Source: Saprospirales bacterium GYS_P2D
GTDB taxonomy: Bacteria; Bacteroidota; Bacteroidia; Chitinophagales; Saprospiraceae
NCBI GenBank assembly: GCA_009833045.1
Contig: WUUP01000009.1
Span: forward strand, 1-64,000
DNA length: 64,000 nucleotides
Reading direction: 5' to 3'
Positions 49,741 to 59,051 of this stretch are shown here, in pieces. Both the position numbers and the translations under genes were made by a program. The notes below the pieces were generated by a model that made no database searches, was not told where the DNA came from, and worked only from the letters and a program-made list of their open reading frames with translations. Each line of letters opens with the position of its first letter. The stretch's first letter is position 1.

Positions 49741-51039
49741 GTGATAAAACAACTCTACAGAAACGGTCTCAATGATGAGGACAATCCTATCACAGTCATG
49801 CGGACTGTACTTGTCAATATCATAGTGCTCATCACTGTGCCTTTTCTATTAGTGCTCATAGTCATGCTATTAGCCTCAGGAGTATATACATCGAGCCTTA
49901 TGACATCGATCGGTACAGCTTTATTGCTTTTCGTGTTTTGGCTCAATAAGCAAAGAAGATTCAAGATCGCAAGCAGGATCGTCATACTCATGCTGACTAT
50001 ATTAACAGGAGTGACGATAACCCTCTATGGCAGGCAAAGTGAGGTCCAGGTACTATTGATATCTATGATGATCTTTGTTTTTGTCCTATTTGATTCATGG
50101 AGCGACTGGATAATGATTGGAGGAACTGTACTCTTGGCATGGTTTGTCCCTTATCTATCTCTTGAGCTATATGGCCCACTGGATGAGACTCATGATGTCC
50201 CTTATTTACACTTTGTGGTGATGGCTTTTGCATTTTTTTCGATTAGCATATTAGCTTTTGTTGTGATGGAAAACCTGAAACTGTACCTCCATCAAAAGGA
50301 TGAGGCACTCGCCACCGCATCTTCACAAAATCAAGAACTCGTAGAGAAAAACAAACATATCCAACAGCAAAAGGACGAATTGGAAATATTCACCTCGGTA
50401 GCAGCACATGATCTAAAGACACCTATTCGTACCATCAGTAGTTTTCTGGGACTTCTGGAGAGGACTCAAAATCCAGACGATAGAAAGTCTAAAGAATATA
50501 TCAATCACATCAAATCTGGAGCGGAGCAGTTGCATTCATTAGTCAATGGTATCAGAGACTATCGCCAGATCGAGGACAATCCGACTTACCTATCCTACTC
50601 TACCACAGTCGATATTCTGGATCAAATAAGAGCAGATTTGAAAAACCAATATACTGACCGAGTCATCCTAAACTATGAAGTGCCTAATAATCTCAAGATA
50701 GATAAAAGTCATCTGACTCAGATATTTGACCATCTGATAGATAATGCTATCAGATACAATAACAAGCAAGTCAAAGAAATAAAAATCACCAGTATCCTAT
50801 CTACTGATAATGTCTTAATCAGGGTAAAAGACAATGGTATAGGTATCGACCCAGAGTATCTCTCCTACATTTTTGAGCCATTCAAAAAGCTACACAGCTC
50901 TCATATCTATGAAGGCTCGGGACTCGGACTATCCATAGCTAAAAAGATCATCAATAAATATGGAGGAACAATAGAGGCGCAGTCTTCGCCATCGGGCAGC
51001 ACCTTCATCATCACATTCCCAAGAGCGATAGTCGTATAG
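49741..51039 (+). CDS. Membrane sensor histidine kinase
   Basis: A 432-residue kinase with about six transmembrane helices in the first 180 residues (from VLVNIIVLITVPFLLVLIVM to FAFFSISILAFVVM). A coiled coil (190-215) leads to HisKA with SVAAHDLKTPIRTI as H box, and HATPase_c with DHLIDNAIRYN, DNGIGIDPEYL and GSGLGLSIAKKI. No separate sensor domain, so it probably reads a membrane or intramembrane cue. No response regulator is adjacent. The start is a GTG at 49741; the first ATG would be 49798. Confidence 0.92.
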   Translation: MIKQLYRNGLNDEDNPITVMRTVLVNIIVLITVPFLLVLIVMLLASGVYTSSLMTSIGTALLLFVFWLNKQRRFKIASRIVILMLTILTGVTITLYGRQSEVQVLLISMMIFVFVLFDSWSDWIMIGGTVLLAWFVPYLSLELYGPLDETHDVPYLHFVVMAFAFFSISILAFVVMENLKLYLHQKDEALATASSQNQELVEKNKHIQQQKDELEIFTSVAAHDLKTPIRTISSFLGLLERTQNPDDRKSKEYINHIKSGAEQLHSLVNGIRDYRQIEDNPTYLSYSTTVDILDQIRADLKNQYTDRVILNYEVPNNLKIDKSHLTQIFDHLIDNAIRYNNKQVKEIKITSILSTDNVLIRVKDNGIGIDPEYLSYIFEPFKKLHSSHIYEGSGLGLSIAKKIINKYGGTIEAQSSPSGSTFIITFPRAIVV

Positions 51040-51129
51040 AAGTAATTCTTTCAAAAATTATCCAACTTGGCTAAGCGTTATCTTTTCGTGCAGTATTATA
51101 CTGACAAAGAACGCAAGAATAGCCAAACA

Positions 51130-52833
51130 ATGACAACGATCAAATCTCTCATACTGCTGCTCGGATTAAGCTTGCTCTACTCAGCCTGCTACGAAGACTT
51201 ATTAGAAACGAACACTTTAGACTCTTCAATCGCAGAACCTGAGCAGCTCTATGTCAATCAGATCTCGGGAGTCGTAACCGACACTGCCGGCTTCGCTATT
51301 GAAAATGTAGAAATCTCCATTGTTGGCGCCACTACCTTAACTGATGCAGAAGGAAAGTTTGAACTCAAAGACGTAACTCTCGGACAATATGGCTCCTATC
51401 TCTCAGCAGAGCGAAATGGCTACTACGAGACAGGCATAAGGCTATATGGTGCGGAGTCTCTCTCACTATATACGACCCTCACCTTAGTACCCAAAAAGGG
51501 TGACTATGTCTTTGAGAATAGTCAAGGTGCTGAAGTGCAAGATCCTTCTGGACTCAAGGCAAACTTCCCAGCAGGCACCTTTCAAAAAGATGGAACTCCG
51601 TATGACGGATCGGTATACGTCAATATATTTTGGGTGGCCCCAAATAATATCAACACCTACGATCATAAAGTGCAGGTCTATGAGTCTATCACTGCCGATC
51701 AGCAATACCCCTATCATAAGCCAGCGCTCAGCAGTATTGCTTATATCAGTGTGACTGATGCCTCTGGTCGACCACTTGATGTAGACCCTGAGCAGCCTGT
51801 AGAAGTGATATTCCCGGCTGAGCATCAGACCAGTAATGACGCATTAGTAGAAGAAGTAACTCTCTTATCACTAAATGAAAATATTGGTCTCTGGGTAGAA
51901 GAAGGTACGGCCATCAATACTGGAGCTGGATATCGTGCGCTGCTACCCCATTTCAGCTGGTGGTGTATCGCTACTATACGCTCGAGTGCCGATTTATGTA
52001 TTTCATTCTCTGATCTTACGGCAGAATCAACCAGTCGTGAGAGAGGAGATTTATTCTTAATCTCCGAGACTGATGGTGCGATCGTGCACGCCGGAGTGAT
52101 AGACTACGAGCATGAGGTATGTATCCCTATCCCTCAAGAGACACAGCTGGAGATCAGAGCCTATAATAATTGCTTCTCAGAGATCGGTGCATGGCGATAT
52201 GCAGGTACCGCCGAAAGCACTGACCAGCTCAGTATCGAGATCGAAGCACGTCCTACGATGATCAACCTATCTGGACTCATCGATCCCTGTACCGACGAGA
52301 CGGGGCACTATGTAGATATATACTATAGTACCGAGCTGAGTCAGGATTATTGGGGCCGCACTGATCTGAGATTTGATATTGCACTCGACGCATGCTACAC
52401 CTCAGAGATACTCTATATCACTGCGGTAGACAGCTTCAGCAATATCACGAGATCGGTGACAGTGGACCTCAATGAGCTCAGCTCTCTGGATAATATAGTC
52501 ATCGATCTGTGCTCGCTGAGCACTGGCTCTGGATATATCGAGTACAATGGCCGATCTTACGAAAACGTGATCGCCAGAGCCCAGCCAGAAGAGACCCTCA
52601 TCATACATAATGAGCAGACAGGTAATGGACTACTCCTCGGATTTGATGGACATACGACTGGGACTTTTGAGGGGAGGCTCTTCGGCCAATCTGGAGAAAT
52701 CTGCGAAGGCCAAGTAACCATCACTAAATACGGTGACATCGGAGATACTATCGAAGGAACATATGAGATGCCTGCTAATGAACTGGGCTGCGAAGGCGCT
52801 ACAGGATCATTCGTGGCATTACGAGAAAAATAA
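51130..52833 (+). CDS. Surface lipoprotein with carboxypeptidase-regulatory-like domain
   Basis: About 567 residues. A signal sequence ends in LLYSAC, a plausible though not canonical lipobox. Next comes a carboxypeptidase-regulatory-like domain (about 45-120: ISGVVTDTAGFAIENVEISI, TLTDAEGKFEL), then several beta-sandwich regions with paired cysteines. No enzyme motif. First gene of the unit that continues with an ECF sigma factor (31 bp gap). Start at ATG 51130; the longer frame from 51067 lacks a signal peptide at its N-terminus. Confidence 0.8.
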   Translation: MTTIKSLILLLGLSLLYSACYEDLLETNTLDSSIAEPEQLYVNQISGVVTDTAGFAIENVEISIVGATTLTDAEGKFELKDVTLGQYGSYLSAERNGYYETGIRLYGAESLSLYTTLTLVPKKGDYVFENSQGAEVQDPSGLKANFPAGTFQKDGTPYDGSVYVNIFWVAPNNINTYDHKVQVYESITADQQYPYHKPALSSIAYISVTDASGRPLDVDPEQPVEVIFPAEHQTSNDALVEEVTLLSLNENIGLWVEEGTAINTGAGYRALLPHFSWWCIATIRSSADLCISFSDLTAESTSRERGDLFLISETDGAIVHAGVIDYEHEVCIPIPQETQLEIRAYNNCFSEIGAWRYAGTAESTDQLSIEIEARPTMINLSGLIDPCTDETGHYVDIYYSTELSQDYWGRTDLRFDIALDACYTSEILYITAVDSFSNITRSVTVDLNELSSLDNIVIDLCSLSTGSGYIEYNGRSYENVIARAQPEETLIIHNEQTGNGLLLGFDGHTTGTFEGRLFGQSGEICEGQVTITKYGDIGDTIEGTYEMPANELGCEGATGSFVALREK

Positions 52834-52864
52834 ATCAATCAAAAACTAACAGATTATCCAGCGG

Positions 52865-53398
52865 GTGACGGATAAGACTATAATAGAAGGGTGCAAAAAG
52901 CACCAAGCAAAATATCAGAAAATGCTTTTAGAAAAGTACTCCCCTGTACTCATGGCTACCGCTATGCGCTATCTCAAGGATAGTGCCAGCGCCCAAGATG
53001 CACTGCAAGAGACCTGGATAAAAGTATTCAAAAATATAAATCGATATCAAGAAGAAGGAAAGCTCGGAGGATGGCTCAAGCGAATACTAATCAACACAGT
53101 ACTGCGAGCTAAAATCAAGCCAACTAAAGATGTCGAACTCAATGCTACCGCAGACTATATCACGACCGTCAGGCCAGATATAGAAAGCACACTGAATGTC
53201 AATGACCTAATGAAAGTAATAGAGACCATACCTGTACCTGCCAAACATGTATTCATGATGAATATCATAGATGGCATGAGTCACAGAGAGATCGCTGAAG
53301 TGCTCAATATCAAAGAAAGCACCTCGAGAGTACACCTGACTAATGCCAGAAAATACCTGAAAAACATCCTATCACAATCTAAAGAGATGAGTATATGA
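52865..53398 (+). CDS. ECF-type RNA polymerase sigma factor
   Basis: A 177-residue ECF sigma factor. Region 2 (about 22-90) has SASAQDALQETWIKVFKNIN; region 4 (about 115-170) has IDGMSHREIAEVLNIKESTS, then RVHLTNARKYL. Start is a GTG at 52865. The stop overlaps the following gene as ATGA, coupling sigma synthesis to the membrane protein that is its likely anti-sigma factor. Confidence 0.93.
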   Translation: MTDKTIIEGCKKHQAKYQKMLLEKYSPVLMATAMRYLKDSASAQDALQETWIKVFKNINRYQEEGKLGGWLKRILINTVLRAKIKPTKDVELNATADYITTVRPDIESTLNVNDLMKVIETIPVPAKHVFMMNIIDGMSHREIAEVLNIKESTSRVHLTNARKYLKNILSQSKEMSI

Positions 53399-54822
53399 AG
53401 TGGGAAGATATAGAACGAAAACTGGCACAAGAAATGGGCTCTCAAGAGCATCCGGTAGATACAGATGCACTCTGGGCCGCTGTCAAAGATCATATCCCAC
53501 AAGAAGAGAAAAAAGATCGAGGCATCATCTTTTGGCTCTGGGGCATTGGGCTATTATTTACCCTATCGAGTGTGAGCTATGGTGCCTATCGATGGTATCA
53601 GTCAGAAGACCAAGATATAGATCTGGTCGAGACCAGCACGCTATCATCTGCTATCAAGGCTACTGCTATATTGACGGATGAAGCAATAAATCAGGCTCCA
53701 GCCAAACTCGTCAACACATCACTAAGTGAGTCATCTATTGATAACATTCGCTCAACGGAACGGTCTATAGCGAGCTCACAAGCTAACGAAGGATCGAAGC
53801 CGAGCAAACAATCAAGTAAAAGTCTAATAGCTAATAACAATACCCTAAATAACTACACCTATAACGACAATACTCCAACAAAACCCATCGACTTGGCCAT
53901 CGGGCAATCTAAAAATTCAGTAGCTCCGTTCATTGAGTATGATGCTGAATTACGTAACCGAACTTCAGCAAGTGTCGCTAATAGCATGAAAACCAAAAAA
54001 TTTTGGATCAGTGAAAGTATCACAGCTCTGACCATCGATCCGCTCCTATGGGAAACAGAGGATTATAATGCTCCCCAAAATAGTATCCTACCAACTCCTA
54101 AATACAAAGGACACTGGAGTATTGAGGGAGGCCTCGGACTACTGGCAGGCCATGATCATCTATCATTGAGAAATCAGGAATGGGCAGATCATTATACCCG
54201 ACGTGAGCTGGCAGAAGAAGCGCTGCCATCGTACAATCTTCATCTGATGGGCACCTATCACTTCGCTCCAGCATGGTCGGTCAGAGCAGGTCTGCGCTAT
54301 CAGCATCGCTACAAGCGCTCCAATGGATCGATCCAATACCTCGAAGATATAGAGCTCCAGGACGCACTACTGAAGCAAGTATACTCCATGGATGGAGTAC
54401 AAAATATCACAGGGAGTGCTACAGTACAGCAAGTAATCTCAGAGAATAATCAGCGAATCAATCAATATCGCCGTCTCGAGATCCCAGCAGAACTTCAGTA
54501 TGCACTGCACAGTGGCAAATGGAGCTGGGAGACGAGTGTAGGTGGTGCTATCGGCATCTACAGTGATATCTCAGGATTTACGCATCCATTTGCCGATAGA
54601 GAGTATGATCTATCAACAGATACAGAGGGCTGGTACTTGGCTCGCATACCTACTCTATCGATAGGAGTATCCTCAGGTGCCGCCTATCAGCTCGAAAGCA
54701 TAGACATCTATAGCCGAATCCGCTACCAATATGATGTTAACTCGATCACAAATAAAGAATACGGAGTCGCAGAGCGACTCTCAGGATGGAATATAGAAAT
54801 AGGACTACGCAAGCATTTTTAA
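53395..54822 (+). CDS. Dual-membrane anti-sigma-like protein: TM helix plus outer-membrane barrel
   Basis: A 475-residue protein with an unusual layout. A short cytosolic N-terminus (1-42, acidic and amphipathic, fit for sigma binding) is followed by one transmembrane helix (about 43-64), a long Ser/Thr/Asn-rich disordered linker (about 75-240) and a C-terminal outer-membrane beta-barrel (about 241-475) with strands such as WSIEGGLGLLAG and WSVRAGLRYQHRYK, ending in a terminal Phe (IEIGLRKHF). The helix is not followed by a signal-peptidase site. The layout matches the dual-membrane-spanning anti-sigma factors (Dma) reported in Bacteroides thetaiotaomicron. Overlaps the sigma gene by 4 nt. 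Confidence 0.82.
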   Translation: MKWEDIERKLAQEMGSQEHPVDTDALWAAVKDHIPQEEKKDRGIIFWLWGIGLLFTLSSVSYGAYRWYQSEDQDIDLVETSTLSSAIKATAILTDEAINQAPAKLVNTSLSESSIDNIRSTERSIASSQANEGSKPSKQSSKSLIANNNTLNNYTYNDNTPTKPIDLAIGQSKNSVAPFIEYDAELRNRTSASVANSMKTKKFWISESITALTIDPLLWETEDYNAPQNSILPTPKYKGHWSIEGGLGLLAGHDHLSLRNQEWADHYTRRELAEEALPSYNLHLMGTYHFAPAWSVRAGLRYQHRYKRSNGSIQYLEDIELQDALLKQVYSMDGVQNITGSATVQQVISENNQRINQYRRLEIPAELQYALHSGKWSWETSVGGAIGIYSDISGFTHPFADREYDLSTDTEGWYLARIPTLSIGVSSGAAYQLESIDIYSRIRYQYDVNSITNKEYGVAERLSGWNIEIGLRKHF

Positions 54823-54832
54823 TATCAAATCC

Positions 54833-57124
54833 ATGAACATGAACAAATCATTACTACTACTATTTTCCTTGATGCTGGGTAGTCTGACTGCACAGACCGT
54901 GTATCTCTATACGGACGACTATGATACTAATATAGGCGACCAACTCTGCATACCCATTCGTACAGATAATTTTGAAAACATGGCGGGCTTTCAGTTTGGT
55001 CTATCATGGAATCATGAAGTACTGGAGTATGCAGGATATAACCACACAGAGCCACTGACAGATATCAGCCTCAGTGATGCGCTCGTAGGCGAAGGACAGC
55101 TGCGTCTACTATGGCTCGACTCTCAGAATAGTCCCGCCACCTTAGCTGCTGGTGACACGATCATTGAGATCTGCTTCACTGTAGTATCAGATTGGGAGAA
55201 CCCTACCGAGCTCAACATCACGGGATTCGATGGGTTTCATATAGAATTCACCCGTAATGACCTCGTCATCCCAGCAGTAGAAGTCAGTAATGGGCAGATC
55301 GACATCACTAATCTTTTAGACTGTTTCTTAGTTCCGATTTGCGAGGATTTTCAATGGCAATTCGAACCAGGTAAGACGATCAGCCTAAACGATCTGATAC
55401 CTGATATCGACTACTTCCTCGACTGTCACGGATACGACATACGAGACATCTATCTACTCCATCTATCTCAGCCAGATGCTCAGCTCAATAAAGAGATCAC
55501 CTTCAACTGTGACAACATATATGGTCCTACGAATATCGGCATCGTATATAAAGAGACACGCTCCGCAGCACCAATCGACGTCTATCAGCTCCTCTGTCAT
55601 AGTAGCATCACATGGGATATACCGGATATCTATGAAGACTGTATCCAGACCGATAGATCCTGTCTCGATCCAGAGCGCTGTCAGCACATCGAGCTCATCA
55701 TAGATAGCACTGTGACTGAGGTCAAATACTCAGATATCATCAATATAGATCAAGACTGTGTGGTAGAATACGGCACTCAATACACCTCTATCGATCATGA
55801 TGGGGACAATCTCTATGACAGATTCCAATTATACTGCGCTGACTATCAGCAGCATCTCGATATCAATGTTCATATATCTCACTATTTTGAAGATGGCGCT
55901 CAGCTCATTGGATTTGATTGGTGCAGGGCGTCGATCGACATGTCTGACTACGAGACGATCTGCGAAGACGGCAACTATAAGCCTGACGAGATGCCAATCC
56001 GTATCATTAATGAGCAGCAAGTCAGCCTCGAGCTGAATGATGAGCCGCTCAGTAATAGAGGAGCCTATCTGCACATCGCTACGAGAGAAGAGGTATTAGA
56101 TATTTTTAACACGCTGACTATTGGAGACAATCACGGGACGCTGCAAAACATCACAACATTAGATCTGGTATACTTATTCAGATCACTCACAGGGGACGAC
56201 ATGAGCCCTCCGGCTGCCATTGCTGCCGATATCGATCTAAGTGGTAGCGTCAGTACACGTGATTTGATCAATCTGAGAAGACATATCCTTGGAGTCGTGC
56301 CTCATGACACCTATGGTCAGCTATTCATGATTGAGACCTCTACTGATTTCAGTGGCTTTGACCAATATGAGTTCACGAATGACTATGTGAATTATCGATT
56401 TGATGGCCCTACAGTAGATTTTAGTGAAGGACTGAATTTTGAGATATTCAGATATGGTGATATCACCGGCTCGGCATCCAGCTTTCATAAGACAGATCCC
56501 CCACTCTATCTATCTGATGCTCATATCGACGTCGTGGATCGCATCGTAAGCGCTGGTGAAGAGGCTATGATCAGCCTATCCTATCCAGATGCACTGCTCG
56601 GGCTGACCGCATACCTCAAGCTCAGTGATGTAGAGATCATCGATATCGTACATAGCTATACAGGAGACATTCTGCAATATCACGAGACAGAAGAAAGGCT
56701 GAACCTGTCATTTCTTAGCCCGAAAAAAGCACAAAAATTCAAACTCACCATAAAAGTGAAAGCTATAAAGGCTGGACGCCTTTCAGAAATGCTCCAGATA
56801 GATCAGTCCCTCTACTCTGAAGTAGTCCACTATCAAGATGCACATGGCCCCTTGAGTCTATCATGGTCTGAGAGCCATATCGATGATCCTCAGGTATGCA
56901 TCTATCCTAACCCGGCTAATCACATGATCCATATAGACATTCCAAGTGAATTAGTATCAGGACAGCTGCGCATATCCAATGTCGTCGGTCAAGTCATGTA
57001 TCAACAGACCATCTCTGAGCAATACATGCAGATACCAGTATCTGATATAGCAGCAAAAGGTATCATGATCATCCAGCTAAAAAATGGAAATACAAAACAC
57101 ATATCAAGAATACATATCGAGTAG
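54833..57124 (+). CDS. Secreted cohesin/dockerin-like protein with T9SS sorting domain
   Basis: A 763-residue exported protein. After the signal peptide (1-20) comes a cohesin-like domain (about 22-158: VGDQLCIPIRTDNF-type start, MAGFQFGLSWNHEVLEYAG, GDTIIEICFTVV). Cys-rich beta regions (165-400) lead to a dockerin-like segment (about 445-492) with one Ca-binding loop (DIDLSGSVSTRDLINLRRHI), a second cohesin-like region (about 560-680) and a T9SS type A tail (about 690-763, VCIYPNPANHMIHIDIP). It is 10 bp after the dual-membrane protein gene and is followed by a terminator, so it is the last gene of the sigma unit. Confidence 0.85.
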   Translation: MNMNKSLLLLFSLMLGSLTAQTVYLYTDDYDTNIGDQLCIPIRTDNFENMAGFQFGLSWNHEVLEYAGYNHTEPLTDISLSDALVGEGQLRLLWLDSQNSPATLAAGDTIIEICFTVVSDWENPTELNITGFDGFHIEFTRNDLVIPAVEVSNGQIDITNLLDCFLVPICEDFQWQFEPGKTISLNDLIPDIDYFLDCHGYDIRDIYLLHLSQPDAQLNKEITFNCDNIYGPTNIGIVYKETRSAAPIDVYQLLCHSSITWDIPDIYEDCIQTDRSCLDPERCQHIELIIDSTVTEVKYSDIINIDQDCVVEYGTQYTSIDHDGDNLYDRFQLYCADYQQHLDINVHISHYFEDGAQLIGFDWCRASIDMSDYETICEDGNYKPDEMPIRIINEQQVSLELNDEPLSNRGAYLHIATREEVLDIFNTLTIGDNHGTLQNITTLDLVYLFRSLTGDDMSPPAAIAADIDLSGSVSTRDLINLRRHILGVVPHDTYGQLFMIETSTDFSGFDQYEFTNDYVNYRFDGPTVDFSEGLNFEIFRYGDITGSASSFHKTDPPLYLSDAHIDVVDRIVSAGEEAMISLSYPDALLGLTAYLKLSDVEIIDIVHSYTGDILQYHETEERLNLSFLSPKKAQKFKLTIKVKAIKAGRLSEMLQIDQSLYSEVVHYQDAHGPLSLSWSESHIDDPQVCIYPNPANHMIHIDIPSELVSGQLRISNVVGQVMYQQTISEQYMQIPVSDIAAKGIMIIQLKNGNTKHISRIHIE

Positions 57125-57173
57125 TCTTACATCTAATTTCATTTTTTTAATTACAAATTAGATCACCACCCAG

Positions 57174-57205
57174 AGAGGCTCTCACCCGGAGCCTCTTTTT
57201 TATTT
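57174..57205 (+). terminator. Terminator after the cohesin/dockerin gene
   Basis: A perfect 7-bp stem AGAGGCT/AGCCTCT (57174-57180 with 57190-57196) with a 9-nt loop is followed by a T tract. A weaker AT-rich inverted repeat (57131-57139 with 57155-57163) precedes it. Confidence 0.88.
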
Positions 57206-58292: not shown

Positions 58293-59051
58293 CTATCTCA
58301 CTACGAGTACTTTCTTTTTCATAGAGAATCCTCCATTCTCGATATTCACTATATAGTATCCTGGAGTATAGCCAGCTGTCGAGATAGTAGTCTGCGTACC
58401 GCTGATGGTCTCTTTATGGACTTGAGATCCGTTAGCATCGATCAACGATAGCTGCCCGCCATCCATAGAACTTGGGATATCTACCGTCAGCTCTGCAGAG
58501 GCGGTGATCGGATTAGGATAGGCTCGCATCTCAGAGACTTCGGCGATACCGGCATCCTTGAGCGGAGCGAACTTGTCAGAATCTATCTTACTGATCATCT
58601 CACCGATCTTATCCAGCTCTACCTCACAGAGCAGAGAGAATATCACAAAGTCACGATCCTCTGCCACGACACCTACTAATTCGTATACGATGCCATCCTC
58701 CTCATCTATGCGGATAGAGGCTCGAGTCGTCCCATCCTTGACATTGATAAGCTCGTCGTAGTCATCACCGATGAGTGCGAGTGCATTTCGGTATTCCGCT
58801 TTAGGATCATCGATAGAGACCTTCACTAAGTCAAACGACTCGACCGACTCTATGAACTCCTTCATTTCTCGCTCTTCCTCAGTGTTTTCTGGTACAAAAT
58901 TAGCGGCATACTGAAATGTCAAAGAAGATACACTGATGACGGTGGACTCATCCATCTCTACATAATGTTCATAGTGCTTATCTATGATATTTTGAGCAGA
59001 GAGGACACCTACAGATAGGCAGATACAGATGAATGCATATAGCTTTTTCAT
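58293..59051 (-). CDS. DUF4252-like protein with T9SS sorting domain
   Basis: A 252-residue exported protein: signal peptide (1-19), a DUF4252-like alpha/beta domain (about 22-165; VISVSSLTFQYA, SFDLVKVSID, YELVGVVAEDRDFVIFSLLC) and a C-terminal T9SS type A domain (about 175-252; RAYPNPITASAELTVDIPSS, GYYIVNIENG, final KKKVLVVR). DUF4252 proteins are usually lipoproteins or plain periplasmic proteins, so secretion through T9SS is a less common arrangement. Function unknown. Confidence 0.78.
   Translation of the reverse strand: MKKLYAFICICLSVGVLSAQNIIDKHYEHYVEMDESTVISVSSLTFQYAANFVPENTEEEREMKEFIESVESFDLVKVSIDDPKAEYRNALALIGDDYDELINVKDGTTRASIRIDEEDGIVYELVGVVAEDRDFVIFSLLCEVELDKIGEMISKIDSDKFAPLKDAGIAEVSEMRAYPNPITASAELTVDIPSSMDGGQLSLIDANGSQVHKETISGTQTTISTAGYTPGYYIVNIENGGFSMKKKVLVVR

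Follow-up and report, generated by a model that had tools for sequence, protein, structure and literature searches.

A conserved lipoprotein gene accompanies a predicted Dma-type trans-envelope sigma switch in Saprospiraceae

Background

Dual-membrane-spanning anti-sigma proteins (Dma) and their partner extracytoplasmic function (ECF) sigma factors (Das) are known from Bacteroides thetaiotaomicron, in which the Dma2/Das2 operon comprises BT_1555-1559 and includes the DUF4943 protein BT_1557 (PMC13088901). Deletion of dma2 raises BT_1555-1557 most, and these genes are not needed for vesiculation, which is changed by Dma deletions; an unidentified glycan at the outer-membrane surface was proposed as the Dma2 signal in this 2026 paper (PMC13088901). 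Here, we analyzed a 64,000-nucleotide stretch of Saprospirales bacterium GYS_P2D (contig WUUP01000009.1, positions 1 to 64,000; hereafter the window), which carries a four-gene unit encoding a lipoprotein, an ECF sigma factor, an anti-sigma protein and a protein sorted by the type IX secretion system (T9SS). Our comparative analyses suggest, with a confidence that we put at evenly balanced, that this unit works as a trans-envelope sigma switch of the Dma type, which activates its own operon and has a surface partner dedicated to it; sigma binding, the contact between partner and barrel, and the signal are predicted.

Compared to Dma2/Das2, the window unit has the same ECF21-type sigma factor and the same anti-sigma plan (N-terminal domain, transmembrane (TM) helix, disordered tether and C-terminal barrel), and accessory genes are found in both operons, with a small lipoprotein gene following the homologous pair in Bacteroides-like genomes. 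Only the window unit shows a large multi-domain surface-type lipoprotein upstream of the sigma gene, a T9SS cohesin gene behind the pair and a visible shared promoter-like element, whereas the Bacteroides operon contains unrelated DUF4943/DUF4858 genes. Dma1/Das1 (PNAS 2024) is of the same regulator class, and its key target, NigD1, is encoded elsewhere, as far as PMC13088901 relays that work. In cell-surface signalling by a TonB-dependent transducer, an anti-sigma and an ECF sigma (e.g., FoxA/FoxR/FoxI, PMC11637429), a signal from outside also crosses the outer membrane and reaches the sigma factor, with autoregulation, as it would here; however, that system employs two proteins and a large TonB-dependent transporter, whereas the window unit has one chain with a small OmpA-size barrel and lacks a TonB-dependent receptor. 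The cellulosome scaffoldin/dockerin system shares cohesin domains, a dockerin-like stretch and a separate four-cohesin protein with the window species, but the unit contains no glycoside hydrolase, its dockerin is weak, and sorting is by the T9SS and not by Gram-positive anchoring. An earlier note on this stretch had regarded the lipoprotein and the cohesin/dockerin protein as new to such a unit. No earlier unit of this kind was found in the literature searched, although BT_1557 of the dma2 operon is a parallel for an accessory lipoprotein; the regulator class is known, and the novelty lies in a conserved lipoprotein as candidate partner, in an element that resembles a promoter and in the connection with T9SS proteins of the cohesin type.

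Results

Relationship of the pair to Das2-Dma2

The window sigma factor was 30% identical to Das2 of a Bacteroides-like genome (E 8e-22). In a tree that included the other sigma factors of the genome, the window sigma, its relatives and both Das2 proteins fell within a 14-row set (support 96/86), grouping with Das2 and other Dma-partnered sigmas and apart from other ECF sigmas. The dma2-like loci were reached through PF16301 (DUF4943), the family annotated for BT_1557 in PMC13088901: two Bacteroides-like genomes have the order of the published dma2 operon (sigma, anti-sigma, DUF4943, DUF4858-type, monooxygenase-type), and the DUF4943 homologue adjoining das2/dma2 in them has a lipobox. The other DUF4943 matches were not Dma operons.

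The single anti-sigma protein, used as a query for related loci, returned no matches because its sequence is too diverged. A profile of 23 relatives matched Dma2 of locus L204 across the N-terminus with 40.8 bits, including the D-x-x-W motif; scores of the A5 profile were weaker (13 bits), and a weak profile match was obtained to the barrel end of Dma2 (probability 95.7). The anti-sigma proteins have a common architecture and weak sequence similarity at both ends. Based on the sigma identity, the tree grouping, the anti-sigma architecture and this similarity at the ends, the pair was treated as Dma/ECF21; its homology to das2-dma2 of Bacteroides is supported at the sequence level, with sigma binding predicted, and this homology backs the Dma/ECF assignment made in the earlier note.

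Five further sigmas of the same group were found in the same genome (L138, L313, L314, L315 and L316), each with a TM-bearing gene downstream, which encodes a long Dma-like protein at L138, L313 and L314. At L315, the anti-sigma has only 114 residues, without a barrel, and a 1038-residue T9SS protein is encoded directly upstream. L138 is followed by genes for a secreted 219-residue protein and a 662-residue lipoprotein.

Architecture of the anti-sigma protein

The AlphaFold2 model of the anti-sigma protein, built on 27 homologues, shows short N-terminal helices (3-14 and 23-31), a TM helix (42-70; hydropathy also indicates a single one), a disordered stretch (72-228, predicted local distance difference test (pLDDT) below 50) and an eight-stranded barrel (240-474, pLDDT mostly above 90), which groups with OmpA, NspA and OmpW in Foldseek (best E 4e-8). 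Across the family, conservation of the anti-sigma protein is highest at W27, a residue of the N-terminal domain, and lowest in the tether. Stretched out, the roughly 160-165 disordered residues should more than suffice to cross the periplasm. The envelope-spanning third protein of the earlier note, with a cytosolic N-terminus, one TM helix, a disordered linker and a barrel ending in Phe, agrees with this model; structure prediction had been proposed there as a check, and it returned the helices, TM segment, disorder and barrel.

Linkage of the lipoprotein to the pair

The window lipoprotein has a clear lipobox (...LLYSA-C) and a CarboxypepD_reg domain. The window copy continues from the lipobox cysteine with an export-signal-like C-Y-E-D; the usual family form is C-R-K-D (41/55 with K at +3, 47/55 with D/E at +4), which resembles the known Bacteroidota surface-export signal K-(D/E). 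In a 12-row lipoprotein alignment no stretch was conserved enough for scanning, and a closer 5-row set worked.

Family-wide profile matches were obtained for the anti-sigma in 196 of 199 genomes and for the lipoprotein in 166. Fifty-nine loci were picked by the lipoprotein alone, and 53 were evaluable, six being cut by a contig end. In 44 of the 53, a same-strand sigma gene of this type follows the lipoprotein gene, and in 42 the Dma gene is in view as well. In a wider and less independent set, which includes loci found via the anti-sigma, the sigma type follows the lipoprotein in 62/77. The named contigs are mostly from Saprospiraceae, and Terrimonas ginsenosidimutans (Chitinophagaceae) shows the full order. 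By these counts, lipoprotein-sigma-Dma is a recurrent Saprospiraceae cassette whose gene arrangement is beyond chance.

Several variants were observed. Tandem lipoprotein copies precede a single sigma-Dma pair at L065, L082, L089, L100, L116 and L128, and orphan lipoproteins without an adjoining pair occur at L159, L174-L176, L178, L184 and L188 (Chitinophagaceae). Long forms of 890-1100 residues (L119-L130) carry at the C-terminus SdrD_B, repeats of the SprB type or a lectin-like LamG domain, in keeping with a location at the surface, and the middle domain of the L120, L125 and L065 lipoproteins gave sub-threshold matches to the N-terminal domain of the animal family FAM171 (PF10577, E 9e-7 to 1e-5).

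A promoter-like element and its second copy

A two-block element, [GT][CA]AGCG[AT][AT] followed after about 16-18 nucleotides by TTTA/TTATA, was found upstream of the lipoproteins with no preset model. Its first block lies within 200 nucleotides of 33/60 lipoprotein starts, compared to 30/442 for other genes of the same loci. In 14 whole genomes, 16 copies of the strict form TGCAGCGAAN{16}TTTA were counted (reversed control, 2). These genomes had been chosen for carrying the element at some of their cassettes, and the count therefore shows specificity and not prevalence; 12 copies precede the lipoprotein, two precede an ECF21 sigma, and two are inside genes. The 4.95 Mb genome of the window species contains two copies of TAAGCGTTN{15,17}TTATA, one at the window lipoprotein and the other 140 nucleotides before the gene for a secreted 880-residue protein with four cohesin domains and T9SS type-B sorting, which is followed by PorP/SprF. 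About 0.15-0.44 strict sites are expected by chance in this genome, only five open frames of which have Pfam cohesin matches, and the probability of a chance site within 250 nucleotides upstream of one of these five is near 1e-4, an estimate made post hoc. The element is cassette-specific and promoter-like, and its recognition by the sigma factor is putative.

Upstream of the lipoproteins, the classical ECF promoter forms (AACTT...CGT) were no more frequent than chance would give. The loose motif AAGCGWWN{15,17}TTATA gave 13 sites genome-wide and 14 in reverse; because this is chance level, only the strict form and its position were used, and no large regulon is claimed. At the second site (L312, G000:C26:42000-56000), the four-cohesin protein and PorP/SprF adjoin a 1530-residue LamG/dockerin-like T9SS protein, and two more cohesin matches lie within about 17 kb on the same contig.

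The fourth gene

The T9SS type A C-terminal sorting domain of the fourth protein is above the cut-off (2.9e-8). Its cohesin domain is below the Pfam reporting level and was assigned because the orthologue in genome G002, 35% identical to the window protein, passes Pfam cohesin (5e-8). The dockerin is below the Pfam cut-off in every member (0.062 in the window, 8e-4 in G002), and the window stretch carries one canonical calcium loop, DIDLSGSVSTRD. The gene occupies this slot in five genomes of three genera (G000, G001, G002, G036 and G034); elsewhere the slot holds other proteins or nothing related, and in G011 it holds an unrelated giant T9SS protein with leucine-rich repeat and lectin domains.

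The two outer genes, both of which the earlier note had included in the unit, therefore differ in conservation. The lipoprotein belongs to the unit, as the 44 loci indicate, and is conserved beside the pair, so that a lack of conservation of the outer genes, which the earlier note had named as a refuting outcome, does not apply to it; the cohesin gene is lineage-specific. A search for the four-gene order in other genomes, as had been suggested, showed that the first three genes recur and that the fourth is restricted to the five genomes. The fourth gene itself is real and its T9SS tail is solid, but the cohesin and dockerin features named for it are sub-threshold in the window copy.

Neighbours of Dma pairs outside Saprospiraceae

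Around 42 Dma pairs that belong to other families within the class, a gene with a T9SS tail was found in 25/52 same-strand neighbour slots compared to 9/242 other genes, a contrast that is inflated by related loci. For an independent test, with the idea noted before testing, one set of 20 loci that represent 20 families had been fixed in advance; the lipobox rule and the T9SS profile were both home-made. T9SS proteins or lipoproteins filled 8/17 neighbour slots in this set compared to 19/127 (p 0.004), and T9SS proteins alone 5/17 compared to 13/127 (p 0.04). Lipoproteins alone were not significant as a general partner outside Saprospiraceae (p 0.07 in both sets), T9SS cargo being the stronger neighbour signal there. 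Dma pairs outside Saprospiraceae thus unusually often adjoin T9SS cargo or lipoproteins, and these neighbours belong to several unrelated families. The genes for a T9SS protein family of about 510 residues, without Pfam domains except the tail, mostly lie immediately behind Dma genes, across several families of the class (L239, L241, L243-L249, L251, L264, L272 and L274).

Gene layout of the window

The four genes are separated by 31, -4 and +10 nucleotides and closed by a terminator (Table 1), and the layout, gaps and terminator given in the earlier note are borne out by the coordinates, reading frames and hairpin. The sigma gene starts with GTG, backed by the aligned start in the G002 homologue, and overlaps the anti-sigma gene by the four nucleotides ATGA. 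A multi-helix membrane histidine kinase is encoded at 49741-51039 (+), 90 nucleotides upstream of the lipoprotein and outside the conserved cassette. The opposite strand carries, at 58293-59051, a gene for a secreted protein of 252 residues whose tail is T9SS-like, and the surroundings of the G002 cassette include a similar one (L056:13491-14243).

Table 1. Features of the four-gene unit (window positions)
Feature	Position	Strand	Remarks
Promoter-like element TAAGCGTT-N16-TTATA	51072..51100	+	Start codon of lipoprotein 30 nucleotides further; same element before homologous cassettes
Surface-type lipoprotein, 567 aa	51130..52833	+	Lipobox, transthyretin-like CarboxypepD_reg domain, then more beta-sandwich domains
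ECF sigma factor, ECF21/Das-like, 177 aa	52865..53398	+	Region 2 and region 4
Dma-type dual-membrane-spanning anti-sigma protein, 475 aa	53395..54822	+	Homology, predicted structure
Predicted sigma-binding N-terminal domain, aa 1-34	53395..53496	+	Includes W27
Inner-membrane helix, aa 42-66	53518..53592	+	Sequence, AlphaFold2; positive residues on N-terminal side
Disordered periplasmic tether, about aa 72-239	53608..54111	+	AlphaFold2, conservation
Eight-stranded outer-membrane beta barrel, aa 240-475, C-terminal Phe	54112..54819	+	AlphaFold2, Foldseek
T9SS type-A-sorted protein, 763 aa, diverged cohesin and dockerin-like stretches	54833..57124	+	
Diverged cohesin-like domain	54899..55312	+	Homology to G002/G001/G036 orthologues
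Dockerin-like stretch, sub-threshold, one canonical calcium loop	56147..56290	+	
Por_Secre_tail T9SS sorting domain	56900..57118	+	
Rho-independent terminator, hairpin and T-run	57172..57198	+	

Discussion

From the computed homologies, architecture, recurrent gene order and shared cis-element, we propose a model in which sigma binding, promoter recognition, the partner-barrel contact and the direction and nature of the signal are predictions. With the switch off, the 475-residue protein would use its cytosolic helices to retain the ECF21-type sigma at the inner membrane, and the disordered tether would join these helices to the barrel in the outer membrane. The lipoprotein would go to the cell surface and act with the barrel as receptor, plug or ligand. 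A change in the state of the partner (a bound ligand, a missing partner or arriving T9SS cargo) might then travel via barrel and tether and release the sigma, which would transcribe from AGCGWW-N16-TTTA/TTATA before the lipoprotein and raise its own operon. In the window species, the sigma would probably also drive the distant operon of the four-cohesin T9SS type-B protein and PorP/SprF, and the net effect may be feedback control of a cohesin/dockerin-type surface layer.

Several observations weigh against this model. The extracellular loops of the barrel are no more conserved than its strands, leaving no footprint of a fixed partner. The lipoproteins stand without a sigma alongside in 9/53 loci, many of those in Chitinophagaceae are orphans, some Dma pairs (e.g., that of G003) occur in genomes that lack a lipoprotein of this family, and the 44/53 linkage was counted on the loci that scored highest with a profile made from linked members, a choice biased towards linkage. 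The element is present in only about half of the cassettes, a search in front of the Dma pairs of other families did not find it, and the second site in the window genome could, as a site, be due to chance, its weight coming from its position.

The main alternative treats the lipoprotein and the T9SS protein purely as autoregulated output of the switch, for instance adhesins or parts of a scaffold; the barrel would then sense something else, and the gene order would reflect co-expression and not sensing. We consider this a serious possibility, if a less probable one: the cis-element precedes the lipoprotein, which makes the latter a likely target, the Dma neighbours come from many unrelated families, as outputs would, and both the unremarkable loops and the BT_1555-1557 genes, most raised in the dma2 deletion and dispensable for vesiculation, point in the same direction. 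These last two points are the reason why our confidence in a dedicated partner goes no further than balanced. On the other hand, one lipoprotein family is tightly kept with one kind of sigma across many genera, tandem copies included, which exceeds most outputs, and autoregulated operons often encode their own sensors, so that autoregulation is compatible with sensing. The role of ligand or load sensor that the earlier note had suggested for the outer proteins is hypothetical, and an output role for both may apply just as well. It is distinctly unlikely, in our judgement, that the protein merely monitors its own assembly, the sigma being freed without any external partner when the barrel fails to insert or tether tension is lost; barrel and anti-sigma domain do form a single chain, the loops have no conserved partner surface and known Dma deletions alter vesiculation, but neither the conserved lipoprotein nor the excess of surface proteins beside Dma pairs elsewhere would be explained. 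Finally, a permissive S-Y-G/A stretch after the helix would allow a cut that separates anti-sigma from barrel, in which case the protein would never span both membranes. Such cleavage is very improbable, as the charged 41-residue N-terminus is unlike a signal peptide, aromatic residues occupy the possible cut region, domain length and order are kept in more than 50 members, matching Dma2, and the published Dma2 model is a continuous chain (PMC13088901).

Conclusions

The partner-sensing switch might be extended to the proposal that Dma proteins are general one-chain receptors for a dedicated, co-encoded surface partner, which in Saprospiraceae would be a large lipoprotein and in many other Bacteroidota a T9SS cargo, and that the switch reports arrival or ligand state of the partner across both membranes, here governing a cohesin/dockerin scaffold; in this breadth the proposal is tentative and on balance doubtful. 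The conserved candidate partner, promoter-like element and candidate target operon nevertheless narrow the question of what Dma proteins sense. If the partner rule were true, the likely partners of many Dma switches could be read from gene neighbourhood alone, and T9SS-bearing bacteria could match the supply of surface proteins to the existing surface content.

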